Part shown: one piece after another, positions 6,172 to 31,281 of the stretch
Layout: the number at the start of each line of letters is the position of its first letter
Position numbering within the stretch: the first letter of the stretch is position 1
Origin: a virus
DNA length: 31,281 bases
IMG/VR virus record: IMGVR_UViG_3300017751_000115
Span: 1-31,281 of that record
Direction: 5' to 3' (one strand)
The notes under the pieces: generated by a model
Told to the model about the DNA's origin: nothing
The model's input: only the letters and a program-made list of their open reading frames with translations
Databases searched by the model: none
Made by a program: the position numbers and the translations under genes

Positions 6172-7326
6172 ATGGAAGAAAACAAAGACGTAGTCGAGGA
6201 GACTACACAAGAAACTGTAGAGCAAACTACAGAACCTCAGGTTGAAGAAAAACAAGAAGAGTCACCAGTATCAATAAATGAAGATGGTGACATAAGATTA
6301 GATTTAACAAAAATACCAACAGAAACAATACCAGAAGAAAATGAAACCACAGAAACAACAGAAGTTGCAGAAGATAACACTGTCAACGAGGGAGTGGTTG
6401 GAGTCGATGAAGATGCCAATGCCCCACAAGAACAAGAAGAGGTACAACCGCAAGCCGAAACACAGGAAGAGACTTTAGAAGAAGCTGTTGAGGAATTTTT
6501 AGATGTACCTGAAAATGTACAAAAGCTAGTTGAGTTTATGAATGAAACTGGTGGAGACATTAATGATTATGTAAGACTGAATACTAATATAGAAGATATG
6601 GACGATTCAGAAATACTAAATGATTATTATAAAAAGACAAAACCTCATCTAAACACAGATGAAATAAACTTCATGTTAGAAGATCAGTTTTCTTACGATG
6701 AAGATTCTGCAGATGAGAAAGAAATATTAAGAAAAAAATTAGCCATGAAAGAGCAAGTTGCTTTGGCTAAAACCTACTTAGACGGGCAAAAGTCTAAATA
6801 CTATGATGAAATCAAAGCTGGAAGTAAGCTCACAGAAGAGCAACAGAAAGCAGTTGAGTTTTTCAATAGTTATAGTCAGGAAGAAAAGCAGAACGAACAA
6901 ATTGTTCGAGATCAGCAAGAAACCTTTTTAAGCAAGACAAATAAAGTTTTTGAAAACTTTGATGGTTTTGAGTTTAATATAGGTGACAAAAAGATCAAGT
7001 ACAATATTCAAGATGTAGCCGCTTTAAAAAACAAGCAAGTTGATATTAACAACTTCGTTGGGAAGTTCCTAAACGAAAACAATGTTATGGACGATGCTGC
7101 TGGTTATCACAAGGGCTTATTCACCGCTATGAATCCTGATGCAATAGCTAAACATTTCTATGAACAAGGCAAGACTGATGCTGTAAAGCAGACTATTGCT
7201 GAATCTAAGAACATTAACACATCGAGGGAATCTCATAAAGTTTATGAAGGTGAAGGAGGTATTAAGTTTAAAGTATTAGGTGAAGATTCTAATGACATGA
7301 AGCTAAGAATTAGAAAACGAAAATAA
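6172..7326 (+). CDS. Acidic capsid scaffold-like protein
   Basis: A 384-residue protein between portal and major capsid protein, where a scaffold is expected. The first ~120 residues are extremely Glu/Thr/Gln-rich and probably disordered (EETTQETVEQTTEPQ and similar). The middle is helical (about 125-260), with acidic segments such as NIEDMDDSEIL and a helix near LRKKLAMKEQVALAKTYL. The C-terminus turns basic (KLRIRKRK), as in many scaffolds where a basic end binds the capsid shell. No protease active site is apparent, so it does not look like a maturation protease. It would direct capsid assembly and then be removed or kept as a core protein. The call rests on position and composition. Confidence 0.65.
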   Translation: MEENKDVVEETTQETVEQTTEPQVEEKQEESPVSINEDGDIRLDLTKIPTETIPEENETTETTEVAEDNTVNEGVVGVDEDANAPQEQEEVQPQAETQEETLEEAVEEFLDVPENVQKLVEFMNETGGDINDYVRLNTNIEDMDDSEILNDYYKKTKPHLNTDEINFMLEDQFSYDEDSADEKEILRKKLAMKEQVALAKTYLDGQKSKYYDEIKAGSKLTEEQQKAVEFFNSYSQEEKQNEQIVRDQQETFLSKTNKVFENFDGFEFNIGDKKIKYNIQDVAALKNKQVDINNFVGKFLNENNVMDDAAGYHKGLFTAMNPDAIAKHFYEQGKTDAVKQTIAESKNINTSRESHKVYEGEGGIKFKVLGEDSNDMKLRIRKRK

Positions 7327-9771: not shown

Positions 9772-9812
9772 TTGTAGATGCAGTCGCTCTACGGGGCGAT
9801 TGCAAACTACAA
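9772..9812 (+). promoter_or_regulatory. Two-part intergenic hairpin
   Basis: Outer arms TTGTAG (9772-9777) and CTACAA (9807-9812) pair perfectly. Inside them TGCAGTCGC (9779-9787) and GCGATTGCA (9796-9804) form a nine-pair stem with one G-T wobble and an eight-base loop (TCTACGGG). The tail is A-rich, not T-rich, so it is not a standard terminator. It ends 14 bases before the next ATG and could stabilise or process the transcript or affect initiation. Confidence 0.7.
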
Positions 9813-9826
9813 AATTTAAAAAATAT
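9805..9826 (+). promoter_or_regulatory. AACT plus A/T leader before the connector-type gene
   Basis: AACT overlaps the right arm of the intergenic hairpin and is followed by 18 bases with a single C before the ATG at 9827. It is the weakest of the seven leaders because part of it belongs to the hairpin. Confidence 0.3.
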
Positions 9827-10639
9827 ATGGCGCATAATAAAGAAATTAGTATAGACACAGTATACCAAAGAGTTTTAGCTTTAGCTAATAAAGAGCAAAG
9901 AGGCTACATTACGCCACAAGAATTTAATCTACATGCTAATCAAGCTCAATTAGATATATTTGAGCAGTACTTTTATGATTTAGCTGCTATGATTCAATTA
10001 AAAGCTAGAGGTGATGAGGCAAAAAAGCCAGGAAGCAACAACCCTTTAGAACCTGATTTTGGCGACTCAGTCAATTTACTCAGAGAAAAAATATCACTAT
10101 ATAAAGGAACTGATACAGCTTTAGTATTTACAGCCGCAAACAAATCTTATAGTTTGCCAGCACTTACTAATAGCACTATATATAGAACTGGACGACTGTA
10201 CTATTCTGGTACAGATGGATCGTCAATCCCACTAAAACTTATTGAACAAACAGATGTCAAACATATAGTTGATATGTATAACGCTAGAAACAATAGTAGA
10301 TGGCATATAGCTGATGGTCCTGACTTTTTTTATACCGAAAACTCTGATGGTAGTTTTTCATTATATAAAGAAGATGCTACAACTGCTGTCTCTACAGCCA
10401 ACCAATTAAAAGTAGAGGTTATAGCAACAGTACCACCAAAAGTTCAATGGGGATATGTAGTTGTAAATGAAAAAGCATTATATGATGTTAACACCTCTAT
10501 AGACTTTGTAATGCACAGGTCTGAAGAGACAAACTTAGTTATAAAAATATTAGAGTTAGCTGGTATAACTATAAACAAGCCAGGTTTAGTACAAATAGCT
10601 TCTAACGAAGAAACACAAAACATCCAACAAACAAAATAA
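9827..10639 (+). CDS. Probable connector or neck structural protein
   Basis: I start this 270-residue protein at the ATG at 9827, behind an A/T leader. The frame is open upstream to a TTG at 9800, but that codon lies inside the hairpin stem and has no leader. The N-terminal 60 residues are helical (ISIDTVYQRVLALANKEQ, RGYITPQEFNLHANQAQLDI) and remind me of a structural protein recurrent in marine Bacteroidota phages. The remainder is mixed beta (DTALVFTAANKSYSLPAL, WHIADGPDFFYTEN) and the end is a helical segment (VIKILELAGITI) with a Gln-rich tail. It lies three bases before the next gene, in the block between capsid and muzzle-like protein, which suggests a head-tail connector or ring protein. 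The exact role is uncertain. Confidence 0.65.
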   Translation: MAHNKEISIDTVYQRVLALANKEQRGYITPQEFNLHANQAQLDIFEQYFYDLAAMIQLKARGDEAKKPGSNNPLEPDFGDSVNLLREKISLYKGTDTALVFTAANKSYSLPALTNSTIYRTGRLYYSGTDGSSIPLKLIEQTDVKHIVDMYNARNNSRWHIADGPDFFYTENSDGSFSLYKEDATTAVSTANQLKVEVIATVPPKVQWGYVVVNEKALYDVNTSIDFVMHRSEETNLVIKILELAGITINKPGLVQIASNEETQNIQQTK

Positions 10640-21762: not shown

Positions 21763-24700
21763 ATGTCAGTTGAGCCAAAAAGAGATGAAAAATTAGTAGG
21801 AATTATCAATAAAATGCTAGCTAACAACGAGCCTGATCAGCTAATAAAGGACGTTGTTAAAAAGTATAAGAGAAATAAGTGGACTACAGAAATGGCTACG
21901 TTGCAAAACGAGAAACGTAAACTTAACTCAAAAGATCAATCTAACAATACTACTGACAACCCTAGTCTTCAAACTAAGACTAACCCTAAAGTTGTAAGAA
22001 GTAACGCGCAAGGAGCTATCACAGACCATGTGCCGTTTGATATATTCAAAGGTGCTATAAAAGATGGTAAGGAGTTAATCATGCGAAACGATACTAAAAC
22101 AACTGATAATCTTAACGAGCATTACAAAAATTCAGGCTTCGTATTCGAAACCAATGATGACGGTACTATTACCGTTAATTCACCTGGTAGAGATGTGGAG
22201 CCTTATACATTTGAAATACCTGCTGGTGGTCAAGATGATAGCGTTTGGGAAGCTACTTACAACCAAATGAATCAATACATAACAGATACTTCGGCTTTAG
22301 ATATTGACGACACGGCAATAAACGAGGCTATTTTAGAGTCTGAAAAATATGGACCAAACGATGAGCAAAAAGTAGCAAATGATGCTGCGGCAAATAGTTA
22401 TGTTGATGAATTATTTGAAGACCCAGATATAGAGGAGATGAGCTTGATGGATAAAGCATTAAACGTTGGAAAAGCATTTATTGATCCATCAATGAAAAAA
22501 ACTCTTGCTGAAAAGATATCTAGCAATTTAACAGATGATGTAATTGAAAAAAATAAAGAAGCTAAAAAAGCTAAAAAAGATTTAATATTAAAAGCTCAAC
22601 AAAATTTATTTACGTCAGAAAACCCAGGTGTTAGTGTTGGTGGTTATAACGACAACAAACAATATGAAAACTCACCTGAGTTTGATGCTTTCATAGCTGA
22701 TTTAGATCAAGACGATATAAAAGCAGAAGCGTTAAAGATAAAGACAGACATGTTAAATGCTGAGTCTGAAAAGTACAACCTAACAGAAGCTATAGACGAT
22801 CAAGATGTTGGACAAAGAATTTTAGAAGATGTAGTTAATGTTGTGCTTGATGGCGGTGTGTTAATGGATAGACCATGGTTTATGGAGAAAGAGCTTGATG
22901 GTAAAGGTGACAAGCAAGCTGAAATGGAAAGAAAAGCCAAAGAAGCTCAAAGCGTTTTAAATGCTCAAATAACTAAATATGTAAATACACAAAGCTATCA
23001 CTTGGATAACATGACAAATGTTTACAGTGAAATGGAAAAACTTACTGATCCTAATAATAGAAAAAAGGAGCAACATAGGTTAAAGCAAATTGAAAACGAA
23101 TATAAAATAATATCTAAAGGTAGGTATGCAACTGAAGACGAAGTAGACGAAGCAAATGTTAAGATGCAAGCTTTAATGATGGAGAGAGACGAGATAGTTG
23201 CTCTGTTTGATGGTGATAAAGCTAAGTACGATAAGCTTAGAGGTATATTTGACAAGCACGAGGGTATGTATCAAGACGTGCTCAAAGATGGTAAAGGACT
23301 AATAAGTAATGACAAAGAGCTAGCAGCATACTTAAATGTCGTGTCTAGAAGACATGGTGGTGTCGAACAAATGAGATCTGCATTGAGAATCGGTGCAAAC
23401 TCTTTAGTTGGTGGTATGGTTGATGCTGCTGACGCTATAGTCTTTGCTCCTTTAAGATGGGCTGAAGAAAAATACAGTAACGGTGATTTGCCAGAAGGTT
23501 TTCAACCAGTAGTACAGATGGCAAAGAAATACGAAAAGCTACAAGATACTTATGGTATGGGTGCTATTGCTGATCACTTATCTAATGTTAATAAAAAATT
23601 ACAAGCAGGAACTCAAGAACCACCTAAACTAGGAGATATAAATTTTACTTCATTAGAAGGTCTAGAGAACCTTGGTTCTTGGATGGGTAACACAACTATG
23701 ACACAGCTACCAAATGCTGCGTTAATGTACATGACTGGAGGTGCTTCTTTATATTTAATGAGTGCTAGCGCTATGGGTAACACCATGCGAAGTATGGACG
23801 AGGAAATGGACATGTATGCTAATCTTCCAGAGAATCATCCGATGAAAGATTTTAAATATAGTTTTGCTAATCAATACTCAACAGCTATAATAAGTGGTGC
23901 TGCTGAGGGTTTATCTGAAAAAGTTTCTCTTGGTTTTGTAGATGAGTTTTTTGGCAAACTTAAAAGTGGTGATGCTATTAAAGATGGTTTTATGAACTAT
24001 CTTAAAAAAGAATACTTTGCAATACCTGGTCTTGGTAAAAATATTTACCAGTCAGCTATGGAAGGTGGAACTGAAGCTCTATCTCAAATAACTGGAAACT
24101 TAGCCATGAGATATATATCTGGTAATCCAGAGCATAAAAACATGAACATATGGGAAGGAGTTCCAGAGTCTTTTGCTTCTGGTTCGTATATGCAAGGTGT
24201 AGTATTTAAAGCTCCAATATTAGCACAGTCAATGTTAGGTCCTTTTCAATCAGAAGCTTCTGTAGATAATCTTCAAGCTAATGCTAAGGAAATAATGGAT
24301 CTGGAAAAAAGTCTTAATGATCCAAACTTAACACCTAAAGCTAGAGAAGCTATAGAAGCAAGGTTGAGAGAAAAAGTACAAAACTCTACTACTATATTAA
24401 AAAATGATATAGACAACATAGATCAAATGTCTGAACCTGAAAAGGCAAGGCTTATAGAAATAGCAACTCAAAATGCTAAGCTTGAAAATCAATTAGAAGC
24501 TATAAAGCAAGACGAATCTTTACCAGATGAAACTAGAGAAAAAATGATCACACAGATCACTGGTGATATATCTAGAATGAAAAACGAACGTAACTTAATT
24601 GTTGCACCTTATAATAAAGCTAGAAATCAAAAGATACTAGACAAATCTATACAAAGAATTAGAAATAAAGCTAGAAGAACTTTTGGTAAAGGTAACTTAG

Positions 24701-27700
24701 ATATTGAAGATGTTGGTAGAGATAAAGCGGCAGAGCTGTTTGAAATATTTAGAAACCAACAAATAGCTAGATTAGATAATCAGCTAGACGGAATTAGAAC
24801 TGAGTTTAGAAGAGGTAATATAACAGAACAACAGTATTCGCAACAAGTTGCTGAGGTAGAGTCTAAGATGTCAGAAATGCAAAATGCTAACGAGCAAGAT
24901 GCTAAGTATGCTAATGGTTTTATACTAGAAAACCAAGGCGAAGGTCCTGATCAAATAGTTATAAACAGAGATACATCTTTAGAAAAAGGAGCTGTAAATG
25001 TTGCTGCACATGAGTTTCTTCATAAAGTTTTACAAAACACAGTTAGAGACAATCCGCAGGTAGCAAAGTTACTAGGTCAGTCTTTAATGGGTGAGTTAGC
25101 AAAAATAGATTTAGAAGGTCTGCAAAAATCAGCTTACAGAACTAGATTAGAAAACTATAGAGATCAACCTGCAGAAGCACAAGCTGAAGAAGTTTTAACT
25201 ACGTTTGCAGATGCTGTTAAACGTGGAGATTTAAAAATGGACACAAACAAAGTTGGTGACACTGTAAGAAGATCGTTACAAGCTTTAGGTATGGACGTTA
25301 AGTTTAAAAACGCTAGAGATGTATATAATTTTATAGGAGATTATCAAGCTTATGCAGAATCAGATATGCCAAACTATGGTATAGAAAGAGCTGGTAAAAA
25401 AGGTATAGCTATTGAAGGTAAGTTAAAAGCTGAACTTGAAGATTTACAAGCTGAGGTAGTTAAAGCTGAGAAACAAGCTGAGGTCTTAAAAAAATCTATA
25501 GATGGCAGTTTTGAAAATAGCATTCAAGACATGATAGAAAATCCTATATATCCAGACCCTGATGCCAATGCGTTTATGATAGCTGAGATGTATAACCCTT
25601 TAGATACAGACGGTAGAGTTTTACCTGGTGAAAGACTAACAATAGGAGCTAGAAGTATACTCAATAAATTAAAAAAATTCCAAGATTTACCTCAGTTTGA
25701 CAATAAAAGAAAAGCTATAATAGATGATATATTAAACGATCCTGCTACTAATAGAAGTATAAGATCTATTATTAAGACTTACGTTGTTGATAATACTGAT
25801 GGGCCAAACGGTGAAAGAGTACCTTTGAGTGGTTACATCGGATCTGTACTTGCGAAAAGAGGTGTATCTGAAGCTGTAAACAAACATATAAAAAGTGGTG
25901 AAGGTTTTAACAGTGGCGAGGGTGTTATAGATAATATAGGTGTAGAAGATTCTCAGTTTCAAGAAGAGGATAGGTTAACAATGTTAGATTCAGTTGATGA
26001 TGATGGAAATCCTATAATCAGTGTTGAAAGCCAACAAACCGTGTTAGAAGCTATGATGCCTATCATAGGTGTAAAGCTGCCAGCTATTGATGCTGCTAAA
26101 AGTAAAAACAAATCTGTATCTCCATTAATATCTCAATTGAAAAAAGAGTTTGGTGTTAAAAACGGACCTATACATAAAGCAATATTACAAATGATAGGTA
26201 AAACTCCAATTGAAATACAAGAGTTTTTGAACAACCCAAAAAATAAAGAAGTTTTATTATCTGTTTTACCAACATCTTGGTTGGCTAAAAATATTCCAAA
26301 CGCAGTAGAAAAATTAGTTATACAAGAAGACGGTAGTAAAGTGTGGACAACAGATCACGTTGGTAGAACTAAAGGAACTCAACCTGGTCAAATAGATTTT
26401 TGGAGATCTACAGAAGAAGGTCCTTACATGGGCATGACTGATGGTAAGCAAAAAATTAGACGTAATGCTAATGCTATTGAAGATGTAGATTTTAACGAAG
26501 TATTTTTACCTGGTCCAACAGTTACTGATATTAAACGTGGTAACAAAACTCAAGGTAAATTAGGTTTAGACGCTATGGCTATGGCTTTAGGTCAAGAGTT
26601 AGGTATGGAAATGTTTGATAAAGATTTAGAAAACGATGGTCCACTAACTAAGCTGTTTGAAGGAAGACAAGATTTATTTGATAGAATATTAGCTGAAAAC
26701 TATAAGTCAGAGATCATAGCACAAATGGAAAGAGGTACTGTTAAAATGAGTATCGATAGTGAAACTCCAAACGGAAACGGGAACGTGGAAGATAGAGTTG
26801 TTGAGCTTTATAGTCAATTTATAAATCAATACGACAAGGGCTTAAGTAGAGAATCGAACTTAATGAACACGGTTAGCATGTTAGATCCTCAAGCTTTACA
26901 ATTCATGCTAGACAGTGGTTTATTTGCTTTTTTAAGCAATATATCAGAACAGATGTTTGTTAAACCACTTAAGAATTTTATGCAAGAGTTTAATATGACA
27001 GACATGCTTAATAGTTATGAGAATGACACGGTTGAGCAAGCTAGAAAAAAATTCGCAAAAACGTCTTTGGCATACATAGATAAATTACCACCAAGTTTAG
27101 TGAAAGCTTTAGGTAAAAAGTTCTTTGGCTTGACTGGTGACAAAACAAGAGGAGGCTTAGGTTCTATTAAGCAATTTAACAAAGATGGTACTACTACTAA
27201 AAACTATACTCCAGAAGCTGCAGAAGTAAACGCTGCTTGGGAAGCTAAAGTTAAACAAAAAGATAACACTGAGTACGATTTTAATGTTGAAGATGTTCAT
27301 ATATATGAGACAGACAATGGTATAATAAAAGATATAAACGATAATATACTATCACAACACAAACCTGGTGAACAAGGTAGAGTAGATAAAATAAACCAAA
27401 TAGATAAAAAGCATGGTGATGCTATTAGAGCTGCTAATATTGCTAACCCTAAAGCTATGGCTTTTGTTATAGCTACAGGTTTAGAGATCGCATCTGAGAC
27501 AAAAGATGCTAAGCAAAGTGATGATATTATCATGGGTGTTATAAAACTATTACAAGGAGCAACTAGCAATGTTGGTGGTACAAGAGGCCTTATAACTTAT
27601 GATGCTTTAGAGGTTCATGGAGAATCTATGGCTACATTTAAAAAGAAAAATAAAAAAGGCGAAACAGTTTATACTAACAAAGCTACAAGAGCTCAAATAG

Positions 27701-30700
27701 AAAATGGAGAGGTTGAACTAAACACAGAACACCCGTATTACAAAGAAGCTATAAAACAATATCCTAATGATGCTGTTAAGGCTGCTGACAAAATGAAGCA
27801 GAAGTTAGAACACCAAGACGTATCTGCAAATGTGAATAGAGAAAATGCTAAAAGCTTACTAACCCACTATGATTTAGCAAAAAATGATACTTACAAAGAG
27901 TTTTTACCATATATAAAAGAGGCGTTAAAAAACCAAGTTTTATATAACACTTATCAATTCGCTGGTGTTTCGAATCCTAAGATAAATTCTGACATTCAAG
28001 ACAATGTTTTAACAACTACTAGTGTAGATGGTTTTGGTAGACTGCTATTAGCTTCTTTAGCGAAAGGTGTTTCATTCATGGTACCAACAAACACTTTCTC
28101 TACTAATGGTCTAGGAGATTTAATATCAGCAAGAATAAATGAGTCTATAAAAATAACTCAACCGACACCTATAAAACAAATTTTAGAAAACAAAGTTAGA
28201 GATAAAGCTGTTACAACTGGAAGATCAATGATGAGTATAGATTCTAAGGGTATAACTATTTTAGATTTTGACGATACTCTAGCTACTAGCAACTCATTAG
28301 TTAGATACACGACGCCAGACGGAGATACAGGTACATTAAATGCAGAACAGTATGCAAGCACTTACCAAGACTTGCAAGATCAAGGTTATGTGTTTGACTT
28401 CACAGAGTTTAACAAAGTTGTTGGTGGTAAGATAGCACCATTGTTTCAAAAAGCTTTAAAGCTACAAGGTAAGTTTGGTCCTGACAATATGTTTGTATTA
28501 ACAGCTAGACCACCAGCTGCTCAAAAAGCTATATTTGATTTCTTACAAGCAAACGGCTTAAACATACCTGTAGAAAATATAACTGGATTAGGTAACTCCA
28601 CATCGGAAGCTAAAGCGCTTTGGGTTGCTAGTAAAGTTGGTGAAGGCTATAATGACTTTTATTTTGCAGATGATGCTTTGCAGAACGTACAAGCTGTAGA
28701 TAACGTTTTAGAACAATTTGATGTTAAAAGAAAAGTACAACAAGCTAAAGTGCGTTTTAGTAAAGATGCTGACACTATATTTAACGATATACTAGAACAA
28801 TCCTCCGGTATTAAGTCTGAAAAAGAATTTTCAAGAGCTAAAGCAAAACAAAGAGGTAAAGGAAAAGGTGTTTGGCAGCTTTTTATACCAGCTTCAGCTG
28901 AAGACTTTAAAGGTTTACTATATAAATTATTATCTAAAGGTAAACTTGGTGAGCAACAAATGGCTTGGTTACAAGAAAATTTAATAGATCCTTTTGCTAG
29001 AGGAATAAGAGAATTAGATGGGTACACTAGAAGACTAACTAATGAGTACCAAACTTTATTAAAAGCAAACCCAGCTATTAGAAAGGCTTTAGGTAACACT
29101 CTTGGAAACACAGAATTTACTTTAGACCAAGGTATAAGAGTTTATTTATGGAATAAAGCTGGTATTGATATACCTGGTTTATCTAAGACTGATTTAAAAG
29201 AAATAGTAAAAGCTATTGAGTCTAATCCTTTAGCTGTTAAATTTGCTAATGACTTAAATGCTATATCTAAGAAAGGTTATTCAACTCCTAGTGACTATTG
29301 GATGACAGAGTCAATAAAAGGTGATTTAACAGAAATGATAGATGATCTTAGAAAAAACTTTTTAGCAGAGTGGATAGAAAAGAAAAATATAATATTTTCT
29401 GAGAAAAACTTAAATAAGCTCGAAGCAATACATGGACCTAAGTATGTTGAAGCTCTTAGAGATATGCTCTACAGAATGGAGAACGGTACTAATAGAAGTT
29501 TTGGTAGTAACAGATTAGTAAACGGGTTTGCCAACTGGATAAACAACTCTGTTGGTGCTATAATGTTCTTTAACATGCGATCTGCAGTTCTGCAAACATT
29601 ATCAACAGTTAACTTTATAAACTGGGAGGAAAACAATATAATGGCTGCTGCTAAAGCTTTTGCTAATCAAAAACAATATTGGGCTGATTTCTTAACACTA
29701 TGGAACTCTGATATGTTAGTACAAAGACGAAGTGGTTTAAGAACTGGTGTTAGTCAACAAGAACTTTCTGCAGCTGTTAAAGGTGCTAAAAATCCTGTTA
29801 GAGCAGTGTTTCAATATCTACTAAAGTTAGGTTTCACACCTACACAAATTGCGGATAGTTTTGCTATTGCTTCTGGTGGTGCAACATACTACAGAAATAG
29901 AATTGAGATGTATAAAAAGCAGGGCTTAGATCAAAAGGAAGCTGAAGATTTAGCTTTTAATGATTTCCAAAATATTGCTGAAGAGACACAACAGTCTTCT
30001 AGACCTGATATGATTTCACAGCAACAAGCATCTGTTCTAGGTAGATTTATACTAGCATTTCAAAACACACCTATGCAGTATGCTAGGTTAACTAAGAAAG
30101 CTTTACTAGATTTAATTGCTGGTAGAGGTAGTGTTAAAGCTAATATATCAAAAATAATATATTACGGTGCTGTACAAAACTTAATATTCTCTGCATTGCA
30201 AAAAGCGTTGTTTGCATTTATGTTTGATGACGATGATGAAGAAGACAAGAAGAAACAAAGAAAAAAGGAAACTAGTCTTCTTAATAGTATGTTAGATTCT
30301 TTTTTAAGAGGTACTGGTATTGGTGGAGCTATAGTAGCAACAACAAAAAATATGATAATTAAGTTTTTAGAAGAAGAAAAGAAAAACTTTAACGGTGATG
30401 ATGCTAAGGTTTTAATTGAAATGCTCAACCTATCTCCTACTGTTGGATCTAAAATTAGAAAAATGCATACCGCTTTAAAAACATGGAAGTTTAAAAAAGA
30501 TGTTATAAGAGATATGGATGTTTTTGATATTGACAATCCAATATGGCAAGCTATAGGTAACGTTGTTTCTTCTACAACAAACGTACCTATGGATAGAGCT
30601 GTTCAAAAAATGATAAATTTAAACCAAGCTTTAGATTCTCAAAACGAAACATGGCAAAGAATAGCTTTAATATTAGGTTGGAATACTTGGGACTTAGATG

Positions 30701-30774
30701 TTAAGCAAAAAGATGTTGAAGATTCTAAAGAAAGAGTTAGGTTGCGCAAGAAGATGGAAAAACAAAACAAATAA
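21763..30774 (+). CDS. Giant polyvalent internal virion protein with metallopeptidase-like and HAD domains
   Basis: A 3003-residue protein, the largest gene here. Residues about 640-820 contain hydrophobic Gly/Ala/Met-rich stretches (NAALMYMTGGASLYLMSASA, IISGAAEGLSEKVSLG). A charged coiled coil at about 840-1040 precedes HEFLH at 1083-1087, a zinc-metallopeptidase-like motif, with E1142/E1143 as candidate third ligands. A complete HAD-type phosphatase domain covers about 2160-2330: DFDDT 2168-2172, T2247 in LTARPP, K2291 and DD 2303-2304. The C-terminal ~420 residues form a conserved-looking module with hydrophobic helices (NSVGAIMFFNMRSAVLQTL, LGRFILAFQNTPMQYA) ending near WQRIALILGWNTWDL, as I recall from giant proteins of marine Bacteroidota phages. 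The mix fits a 'polyvalent' protein carried in the virion and ejected into the host. No RNA polymerase motif was seen. Confidence 0.78.
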   Translation: MSVEPKRDEKLVGIINKMLANNEPDQLIKDVVKKYKRNKWTTEMATLQNEKRKLNSKDQSNNTTDNPSLQTKTNPKVVRSNAQGAITDHVPFDIFKGAIKDGKELIMRNDTKTTDNLNEHYKNSGFVFETNDDGTITVNSPGRDVEPYTFEIPAGGQDDSVWEATYNQMNQYITDTSALDIDDTAINEAILESEKYGPNDEQKVANDAAANSYVDELFEDPDIEEMSLMDKALNVGKAFIDPSMKKTLAEKISSNLTDDVIEKNKEAKKAKKDLILKAQQNLFTSENPGVSVGGYNDNKQYENSPEFDAFIADLDQDDIKAEALKIKTDMLNAESEKYNLTEAIDDQDVGQRILEDVVNVVLDGGVLMDRPWFMEKELDGKGDKQAEMERKAKEAQSVLNAQITKYVNTQSYHLDNMTNVYSEMEKLTDPNNRKKEQHRLKQIENEYKIISKGRYATEDEVDEANVKMQALMMERDEIVALFDGDKAKYDKLRGIFDKHEGMYQDVLKDGKGLISNDKELAAYLNVVSRRHGGVEQMRSALRIGANSLVGGMVDAADAIVFAPLRWAEEKYSNGDLPEGFQPVVQMAKKYEKLQDTYGMGAIADHLSNVNKKLQAGTQEPPKLGDINFTSLEGLENLGSWMGNTTMTQLPNAALMYMTGGASLYLMSASAMGNTMRSMDEEMDMYANLPENHPMKDFKYSFANQYSTAIISGAAEGLSEKVSLGFVDEFFGKLKSGDAIKDGFMNYLKKEYFAIPGLGKNIYQSAMEGGTEALSQITGNLAMRYISGNPEHKNMNIWEGVPESFASGSYMQGVVFKAPILAQSMLGPFQSEASVDNLQANAKEIMDLEKSLNDPNLTPKAREAIEARLREKVQNSTTILKNDIDNIDQMSEPEKARLIEIATQNAKLENQLEAIKQDESLPDETREKMITQITGDISRMKNERNLIVAPYNKARNQKILDKSIQRIRNKARRTFGKGNLDIEDVGRDKAAELFEIFRNQQIARLDNQLDGIRTEFRRGNITEQQYSQQVAEVESKMSEMQNANEQDAKYANGFILENQGEGPDQIVINRDTSLEKGAVNVAAHEFLHKVLQNTVRDNPQVAKLLGQSLMGELAKIDLEGLQKSAYRTRLENYRDQPAEAQAEEVLTTFADAVKRGDLKMDTNKVGDTVRRSLQALGMDVKFKNARDVYNFIGDYQAYAESDMPNYGIERAGKKGIAIEGKLKAELEDLQAEVVKAEKQAEVLKKSIDGSFENSIQDMIENPIYPDPDANAFMIAEMYNPLDTDGRVLPGERLTIGARSILNKLKKFQDLPQFDNKRKAIIDDILNDPATNRSIRSIIKTYVVDNTDGPNGERVPLSGYIGSVLAKRGVSEAVNKHIKSGEGFNSGEGVIDNIGVEDSQFQEEDRLTMLDSVDDDGNPIISVESQQTVLEAMMPIIGVKLPAIDAAKSKNKSVSPLISQLKKEFGVKNGPIHKAILQMIGKTPIEIQEFLNNPKNKEVLLSVLPTSWLAKNIPNAVEKLVIQEDGSKVWTTDHVGRTKGTQPGQIDFWRSTEEGPYMGMTDGKQKIRRNANAIEDVDFNEVFLPGPTVTDIKRGNKTQGKLGLDAMAMALGQELGMEMFDKDLENDGPLTKLFEGRQDLFDRILAENYKSEIIAQMERGTVKMSIDSETPNGNGNVEDRVVELYSQFINQYDKGLSRESNLMNTVSMLDPQALQFMLDSGLFAFLSNISEQMFVKPLKNFMQEFNMTDMLNSYENDTVEQARKKFAKTSLAYIDKLPPSLVKALGKKFFGLTGDKTRGGLGSIKQFNKDGTTTKNYTPEAAEVNAAWEAKVKQKDNTEYDFNVEDVHIYETDNGIIKDINDNILSQHKPGEQGRVDKINQIDKKHGDAIRAANIANPKAMAFVIATGLEIASETKDAKQSDDIIMGVIKLLQGATSNVGGTRGLITYDALEVHGESMATFKKKNKKGETVYTNKATRAQIENGEVELNTEHPYYKEAIKQYPNDAVKAADKMKQKLEHQDVSANVNRENAKSLLTHYDLAKNDTYKEFLPYIKEALKNQVLYNTYQFAGVSNPKINSDIQDNVLTTTSVDGFGRLLLASLAKGVSFMVPTNTFSTNGLGDLISARINESIKITQPTPIKQILENKVRDKAVTTGRSMMSIDSKGITILDFDDTLATSNSLVRYTTPDGDTGTLNAEQYASTYQDLQDQGYVFDFTEFNKVVGGKIAPLFQKALKLQGKFGPDNMFVLTARPPAAQKAIFDFLQANGLNIPVENITGLGNSTSEAKALWVASKVGEGYNDFYFADDALQNVQAVDNVLEQFDVKRKVQQAKVRFSKDADTIFNDILEQSSGIKSEKEFSRAKAKQRGKGKGVWQLFIPASAEDFKGLLYKLLSKGKLGEQQMAWLQENLIDPFARGIRELDGYTRRLTNEYQTLLKANPAIRKALGNTLGNTEFTLDQGIRVYLWNKAGIDIPGLSKTDLKEIVKAIESNPLAVKFANDLNAISKKGYSTPSDYWMTESIKGDLTEMIDDLRKNFLAEWIEKKNIIFSEKNLNKLEAIHGPKYVEALRDMLYRMENGTNRSFGSNRLVNGFANWINNSVGAIMFFNMRSAVLQTLSTVNFINWEENNIMAAAKAFANQKQYWADFLTLWNSDMLVQRRSGLRTGVSQQELSAAVKGAKNPVRAVFQYLLKLGFTPTQIADSFAIASGGATYYRNRIEMYKKQGLDQKEAEDLAFNDFQNIAEETQQSSRPDMISQQQASVLGRFILAFQNTPMQYARLTKKALLDLIAGRGSVKANISKIIYYGAVQNLIFSALQKALFAFMFDDDDEEDKKKQRKKETSLLNSMLDSFLRGTGIGGAIVATTKNMIIKFLEEEKKNFNGDDAKVLIEMLNLSPTVGSKIRKMHTALKTWKFKKDVIRDMDVFDIDNPIWQAIGNVVSSTTNVPMDRAVQKMINLNQALDSQNETWQRIALILGWNTWDLDVKQKDVEDSKERVRLRKKMEKQNK

Positions 30775-30933
30775 AAAAAGAAAAAAGAAGAACAAAGAAA
30801 AATTAAAGAAAAAGAAAGAAAAGAAAAAGAAGCTAGATCTGTTCAATGTTCTGCTAAAATTAGAAAAGGTAAAGGGCCTAGATGTAAAAACCTAACTGAA
30901 AATAAATCTGGTAAATGCTACGCTCATCAGTAA
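30775..30933 (+). other. In-frame extension of the giant gene: zinc-binding-like tail without its own start
   Basis: Directly after the TAA at 30772-30774 the same frame stays open for 52 codons to a TAA at 30931-30933. It encodes a Lys/Glu-rich linker that continues the style of the giant protein's end (KKMEKQNK before the stop, KKKKEEQRKIKEKERKEKE after it) and then a Cys/His motif: VQCSAKIRKGKGPRCKN followed by SGKCYAHQ (Cys codons at 30847, 30883, 30916; His at 30925). This C-C-C-H pattern is typical of short zinc-binding tails at the ends of phage structural proteins. There is no in-frame ATG, so it can be made only by reading through the stop, or it has been cut off by a point mutation or a base-call error. 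Confidence 0.7.
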
Positions 30934-30963: not shown

Positions 30964-31281
30964 ATGAAGAAATTACTAATAGTATCGTTAATTATTCTTA
31001 CTTCTTGCGCCGCACCGAAAAAATGTTGTGGTCAAGTAGATTTTAAAAAGTATTTTAAATTTGCAACTTTTTATGGGGCTGCAAGTGGAGGTACTTCTAT
31101 ATCTGATGTAGAGACTTTTTCTGTAACAAACGGCTTGGAAACAGCAACAATAAAAACGCCTTTCGATTACAATGTAGCATTTGGTGTACGTAAGATCGCT
31201 AGGTTTGGTTATGAAAACAAAGCTCAAACATTTTACGATGGAACTGAAACATCTTGGTCTGACGGCGCTAATGTAGGTAAA
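30964..31281 (+). CDS. Lipoprotein, N-terminal part (runs off the window)
   Basis: The frame opens at the ATG at 30964 and is still open at the last base, giving 106 visible residues. The N-terminus is a classic lipoprotein signal: Lys-Lys, a hydrophobic stretch (LLIVSLIILT) and a lipobox ending LTSC, so cleavage before the Cys at residue 17 is expected. The following residues (AAPKKCCG) lack the acidic cluster that directs lipoproteins to the cell surface in Bacteroidota, so a periplasm-facing location is more likely. The rest alternates polar and hydrophobic residues (FKFATFYGAASGG, YNVAFGVRKIARFGYENK), which suggests a beta-barrel or beta-sheet protein of the envelope. Function is unknown; superinfection exclusion, lysis or envelope remodelling are possible. 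Confidence 0.75.
   Translation, partial: MKKLLIVSLIILTSCAAPKKCCGQVDFKKYFKFATFYGAASGGTSISDVETFSVTNGLETATIKTPFDYNVAFGVRKIARFGYENKAQTFYDGTETSWSDGANVGK

Follow-up and report, generated by a model that had tools for sequence, protein, structure and literature searches.

Why does the gene for a giant protein of 3003 residues end at an in-frame stop, when the same frame runs on behind it and encodes a further Cys/His-containing segment? In the window analysed here, which is an entire IMG/VR virus record of 31,281 bases, the frame stays open after the TAA at 30772–30774 for 52 more codons, up to the TAA at 30931–30933 (Table 1). The tail peptide downstream of the first TAA is KKKKEEQRKIKEKERKEKEARSVQCSAKIRKGKGPRCKNLTENKSGKCYAHQ. 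A listing of its codons contains none of the start codons ATG, GTG, TTG and CTG in frame. The protein before the stop closes with a stub of 26 residues that ends RKKMEKQNK. By its length the open run is unremarkable, since the window has only 34% G+C and another of its genes (6172–7326) is followed by 41 open codons past its stop. As explained below, it is very probable that the giant protein natively ends in this tail, which is cut off in the window sequence alone by one nonsense change, be it a recent mutation or a base error.

Table 1. Coordinates of the giant gene, its motifs and its C-terminal end in the window.
Feature	Position	Strand	Remark
Giant ORF	21763..30774	+	3003 codons, ATG start; closes the virion gene block; putatively polyvalent-type, HExxH and DFDDT; synteny with G001
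HEFLH, zincin-type metallopeptidase motif	25009..25023	+	residues 1083-1087
DFDDT, HAD-phosphatase-like motif	28264..28278	+	residues 2168-2172
Conserved C-terminal core	29500..30693	+	common to the 80 relatives (best 80 of 281 loci); ends at GWNTWD
Basic stub remaining before the stop	30694..30771	+	26 residues; resembles natural tail-less ends (most 24-52 aa)
Private in-frame TAA	30772..30774	+	stop absent from every tail-bearing relative found
Lys/Glu-rich linker	30775..30831	+	matching L001 stretch predicted as a single long helix
C-x11-C-x10-C-x2-H knuckle	30832..30930	+	His is the penultimate residue
Knuckle ligand codons	30847-30849, 30883-30885, 30916-30918, 30925-30927	+	C, C, C, H
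Second TAA	30931..30933	+	gene end position in relatives

The 424 C-terminal residues of the giant protein served as query for a scan, of whose 281 loci the best 80 were taken as relatives; two more pattern scans of viral contigs added 112 loci with knuckle tails. Thirteen close relatives carry the tail fused to the giant protein, and the nearest one, L001, is uninterrupted across the stop position. In all 112 added loci the frame of the tail stays open back into the upstream protein, over the length of DNA covered. A separate count over all these IMG/VR loci gave 112 distinct tail DNA sequences, none of which is interrupted by an in-frame stop, in a scanned set that may lack records very near the window, so that a near relative sharing the stop may have been missed. 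None of these distinct tails has an upstream stop within 500 codons, and 109 are preceded by at least 100 open codons. Throughout 2.17 Mb of the relatives' loci, the C-terminal knuckle module occurs only at the end of the giant protein, with its last histidine one residue from the end. When the C-terminal region and the tail were compared with a phage collection, at both the DNA and the protein level, no matches were returned, and a pattern scan of genome contigs was equally negative.

The invariant columns in an alignment of the tails of 32 relatives are the ligands C, C, C and H only. Homology to these fused C-C-C-H tails identifies the tail as real coding sequence and rules out a chance open frame. 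Judged by sequence comparison, the 52-codon segment is a genuine piece of protein, a native C-terminus homologous to the fused ends of the relatives. A separate gene is ruled out as well, because the tail has no start codon and is fused in all relatives found; compensating indels are unnecessary, since the frame and the alignment to L001 are continuous. In a preliminary description of this DNA, the coordinates and the peptide of the tail had been given correctly, and its lack of an ATG, its C-C-C-H motif and the inadequacy of a single indel as explanation are all borne out by these data. The same holds for the statement that related proteins end in similar Cys/His tails; the tail is fused wherever it was found in relatives. 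A tail in a separate frame, a tail with its own start and a lack of protein conservation behind the stop had been named as contrary observations, and we found none of them.

In a tree of the C-terminal core the window and L001 are sisters (SH-aLRT 100). They lie in a clade of 14 rows (support 97), all others of which have a fused single knuckle except L006 and L007, which end in another module. Since none of the 112 relative tails contains a stop and the sister sequence is intact, the stop is, by this sequence comparison, derived and private to the window sequence among the relatives found. The dN/dS ratio between the window and L001 is 0.12 for the core and 0.075 for the tail, and the latter value indicates that the tail was under purifying selection until recently. 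Three nonsynonymous tail changes were assigned to the window branch, where unconstrained drift along the whole branch predicts about 30–70. The time without constraint would thus be at most about 1–25% of the window branch, a rough, count-based bound that varies with the values assumed for branch length and for constraint before the stop, synonymous sites being near saturation. We infer that the nonsense change is recent. Most likely, the stop reflects an isolated mutation of recent date or an error in the sequence and not a read-through switch.

The relatives differ widely in how the giant protein ends. Five end types were distinguished by motif, a few by eye: the protein may end in a short stub, in a single knuckle or in a tandem of two (DUF5763/CCCH-like), in a DRV-type repeat tail or in a KKGAxTR-type tail. 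Among the best 80 relatives (of 281), 30 are tail-less, mostly ending 24–52 residues past GWNTWD and usually in a Lys/Arg-rich stretch. The tree requires 11 changes of tail type if the window is treated as its own class and 10 if it is treated as a knuckle form, and with so many changes this end of the protein acts like a slot for exchange. Within L001–L080 it is the last 25–180 residues that swap among the five end types. L006 and L039 belong to clades that are distant from each other, yet their DRV-type tails are homologous (67% over 46 aa). Two sister loci have unusual repetitive ends: the giant gene of L055 (stop 7351) ends in acidic FEFADD-type repeats, and that of L074 (stop 7327) in KKRKFGSS repeats. 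As the tail-less relatives mostly end in a short basic stub like that of the window, the truncation is plausibly tolerated. The last residues of the giant protein may be regarded as a slot into which small ends are plugged; some of these ends are probably zinc-binding, and doubling, exchange and loss of them occurred several times. The phages with this slot form a widespread group, probably of marine Bacteroidota, and the slot raises the testable question of what the tail would hold on to when the protein is packaged or ejected. The stop alone would be an ordinary private nonsense change or sequence error; it is the modular tail that is worth following.

The preliminary description had named a single substitution or a recent truncation as possible causes of the stop, and both fit a private stop in front of a tail without decay. 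It hinted at a base error solely by proposing to map reads, and it did not take into account how common tail-less forms of the protein are. The chance that the nonsense change is real in the phage appears slightly better than even. In the other branch of our preferred explanation, the tail is fused in the population and a sequencing or assembly error has left a wrong consensus base at the stop. A single substitution would suffice for this, the window is a single 31-kb IMG/VR record, the private stop sits in a low-complexity, A-rich stretch of the linker, and the tail behind it has not decayed. However, such errors are rare in the collection, since 94,352 homologous codons of the relatives contain no premature stop, and the remaining window genes are unbroken and collinear with those of G001 and, as far as fetched, G005. 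We regard a base error as the less likely of the two branches. If the stop is real, it could mark a tail loss under way, one of several independent losses and either neutral or adaptive. For this sub-case of the preferred explanation, which we put forward tentatively, speak the 30 tail-less ends among the best 80 relatives, the at least 10–11 tail-type changes on the tree and the likeness of the 26-residue stub to natural ends, e.g. those of L051, L072 and L059. It requires a real stop, however, and no knuckle remnant was seen past the stop in tail-less relatives, so that loss by a point nonsense change was not caught elsewhere.

It had also been proposed that read-through of the UAA yields two forms of a virion protein. 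A functional, leaky UAA with low-rate read-through would produce tail-less and tailed forms and would account for a tail that is intact and constrained behind the stop, but an intact tail is equally predicted by a recent stop. Programmed read-through is not supported, since the stop is not conserved (found in 0 of the 112 distinct tails of relatives), the RNA behind it forms no structure (fold z = −0.42 for 30730–30933), no tRNA was detected in the window, and TAA is the normal terminator there, ending all 17 complete genes. We regard it as very unlikely. At least as improbable is a real stop maintained in the population, where a leaky UAA or a mixture of stop and sense genomes would yield a tail-less and a zinc-tailed ejected giant; if true, the maintained stop would be the within-population counterpart of the between-species tail exchange. 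A reassignment of TAA, or its decoding by a suppressor tRNA, is hardly conceivable. Reassignment has a precedent in Crassvirales, but for TAG and TGA (PMC11210395); in G001, TAA closes 16 of the 17 genes checked, and stop usage in the complete window genes (17 of 17) rules out a global TAA recoding.

In the AlphaFold model of the L001 tail (mean pLDDT 89), a long helix leads into a small beta-knuckle; for the C-terminal core only a poor model was obtained (pLDDT 59), which was set aside. A Foldseek search with the tail model gave no PDB match, and profile searches with core and tail did not reach any solved structure. In L010, the tandem tail exceeds the cut-offs of two Pfam families, DUF5763 (PF19067; 32.6 vs 26.3 bits) and zf-TRM13_CCCH (PF11722; 28.6 vs 20.9 bits), and the tails of G007 and G008 are also above curated cut-offs. 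The L002 tail scores 14.4 bits against DUF5763, below the cut-off of 26.3, and neither the window tail (E up to 1) nor the L001 tail matches DUF5763. The zinc knuckles of DUF5763 and zf-TRM13_CCCH have the same C-C-C-H ligand order as the window-type tails. The single-knuckle tails of the window and L001 align with the tandem tails in the family alignment only. Since the window knuckle reaches no Pfam family, we call it DUF5763-like and do not file it as a member. From its sequence, it is probably zinc-binding, and contact of the tail with nucleic acid is conceivable.

We therefore prefer the explanation of a native C-terminus cut off by a nonsense change, and the following model is proposed. 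A Lys/Glu-rich helix capped by a small C-C-C-H knuckle, which is probably zinc-binding, would end the native giant protein, and one nonsense change in the A-rich linker would remove this knuckle end. The truncated protein would probably be tolerated, as many relatives end naturally in a similar short basic stub. Normally, the tail would probably hold nucleic acid or a packaging partner. It may be one of several exchangeable end modules on a virion-carried protein that is ejected into the host.

The giant protein of the window has no Pfam match, and its putative domains were assigned by motif; of 73 long sequences, 72 contain HExxH and 59 contain DFDxT. Its gene lies in the same block as the terminase, portal and muzzle-type genes. 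Presumably, it is a protein of the polyvalent type that is packaged and ejected. For phage polyvalent proteins, packaging and injection are assumed (Iyer et al. 2017, PMC5512222). The window protein resembles them in its great size, its place at the end of the virion block and its HExxH and HAD-like motifs, and its relatives have variable extra domains; it differs in that it lacks a Pfam match and its domains are called from motifs. A distant relative, L122 (3119–14173, 3685 aa), contains a Zeta_toxin/AAA-like domain (PF06414) at residues 2546–2684 (34.1 vs 22.3 bits). A further counterpart is the 'structural protein' QLF85284 of a cultured Elemovirus, Flavobacterium phage vB_FspP_elemoA_7-9A, which has about 3694 aa and an HExxH motif. 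Its gene likewise closes the portal-to-giant block; the protein shows weak local similarity to the window protein and belongs to a phage whose portal is 42% identical to that of the window. In contrast to the window-type proteins, it is without the Cys/His tail, and similarity in the C-terminal core is undetectable.

The genes of the window include a terminase (phrog_6681), a portal (phrog_6547) and structural genes. A neighbouring protein of 2497 aa matches the crassvirus muzzle domain PF25729 (crAss_MUZ_C, 36.4 vs 27 bits). Crassvirus virions carry several large cargo proteins (Bayfield et al. 2023, PMC10172136), and the link of the window to this muzzle and cargo system runs via PF25729 in the 2497-aa neighbour. 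In the phage collection, the portal matches podoviruses of Flavobacterium, Cellulophaga, Tenacibaculum and Maribacter, mostly of the first two, the best being 42–51% identical. Since these portal relatives belong to podoviruses of Bacteroidota, the host is probably an aquatic member of this phylum. Downstream of the giant gene, a conserved gene with a lipoprotein-like signal start, TSCAAPKKCC, begins at 30964 and runs off the window at 31281; it is 90% identical in G001 and follows the giant gene in many relatives. The 193-aa gene at 715–1296 (stop 1294–1296) is apparently two codons shorter than its 195-aa relative in G001, the alignment continuing to 1302. For the structural gene phrog_14543 (9800–10639), which lies in frame with the preceding gene, the putative start given is the TTG at 9800.
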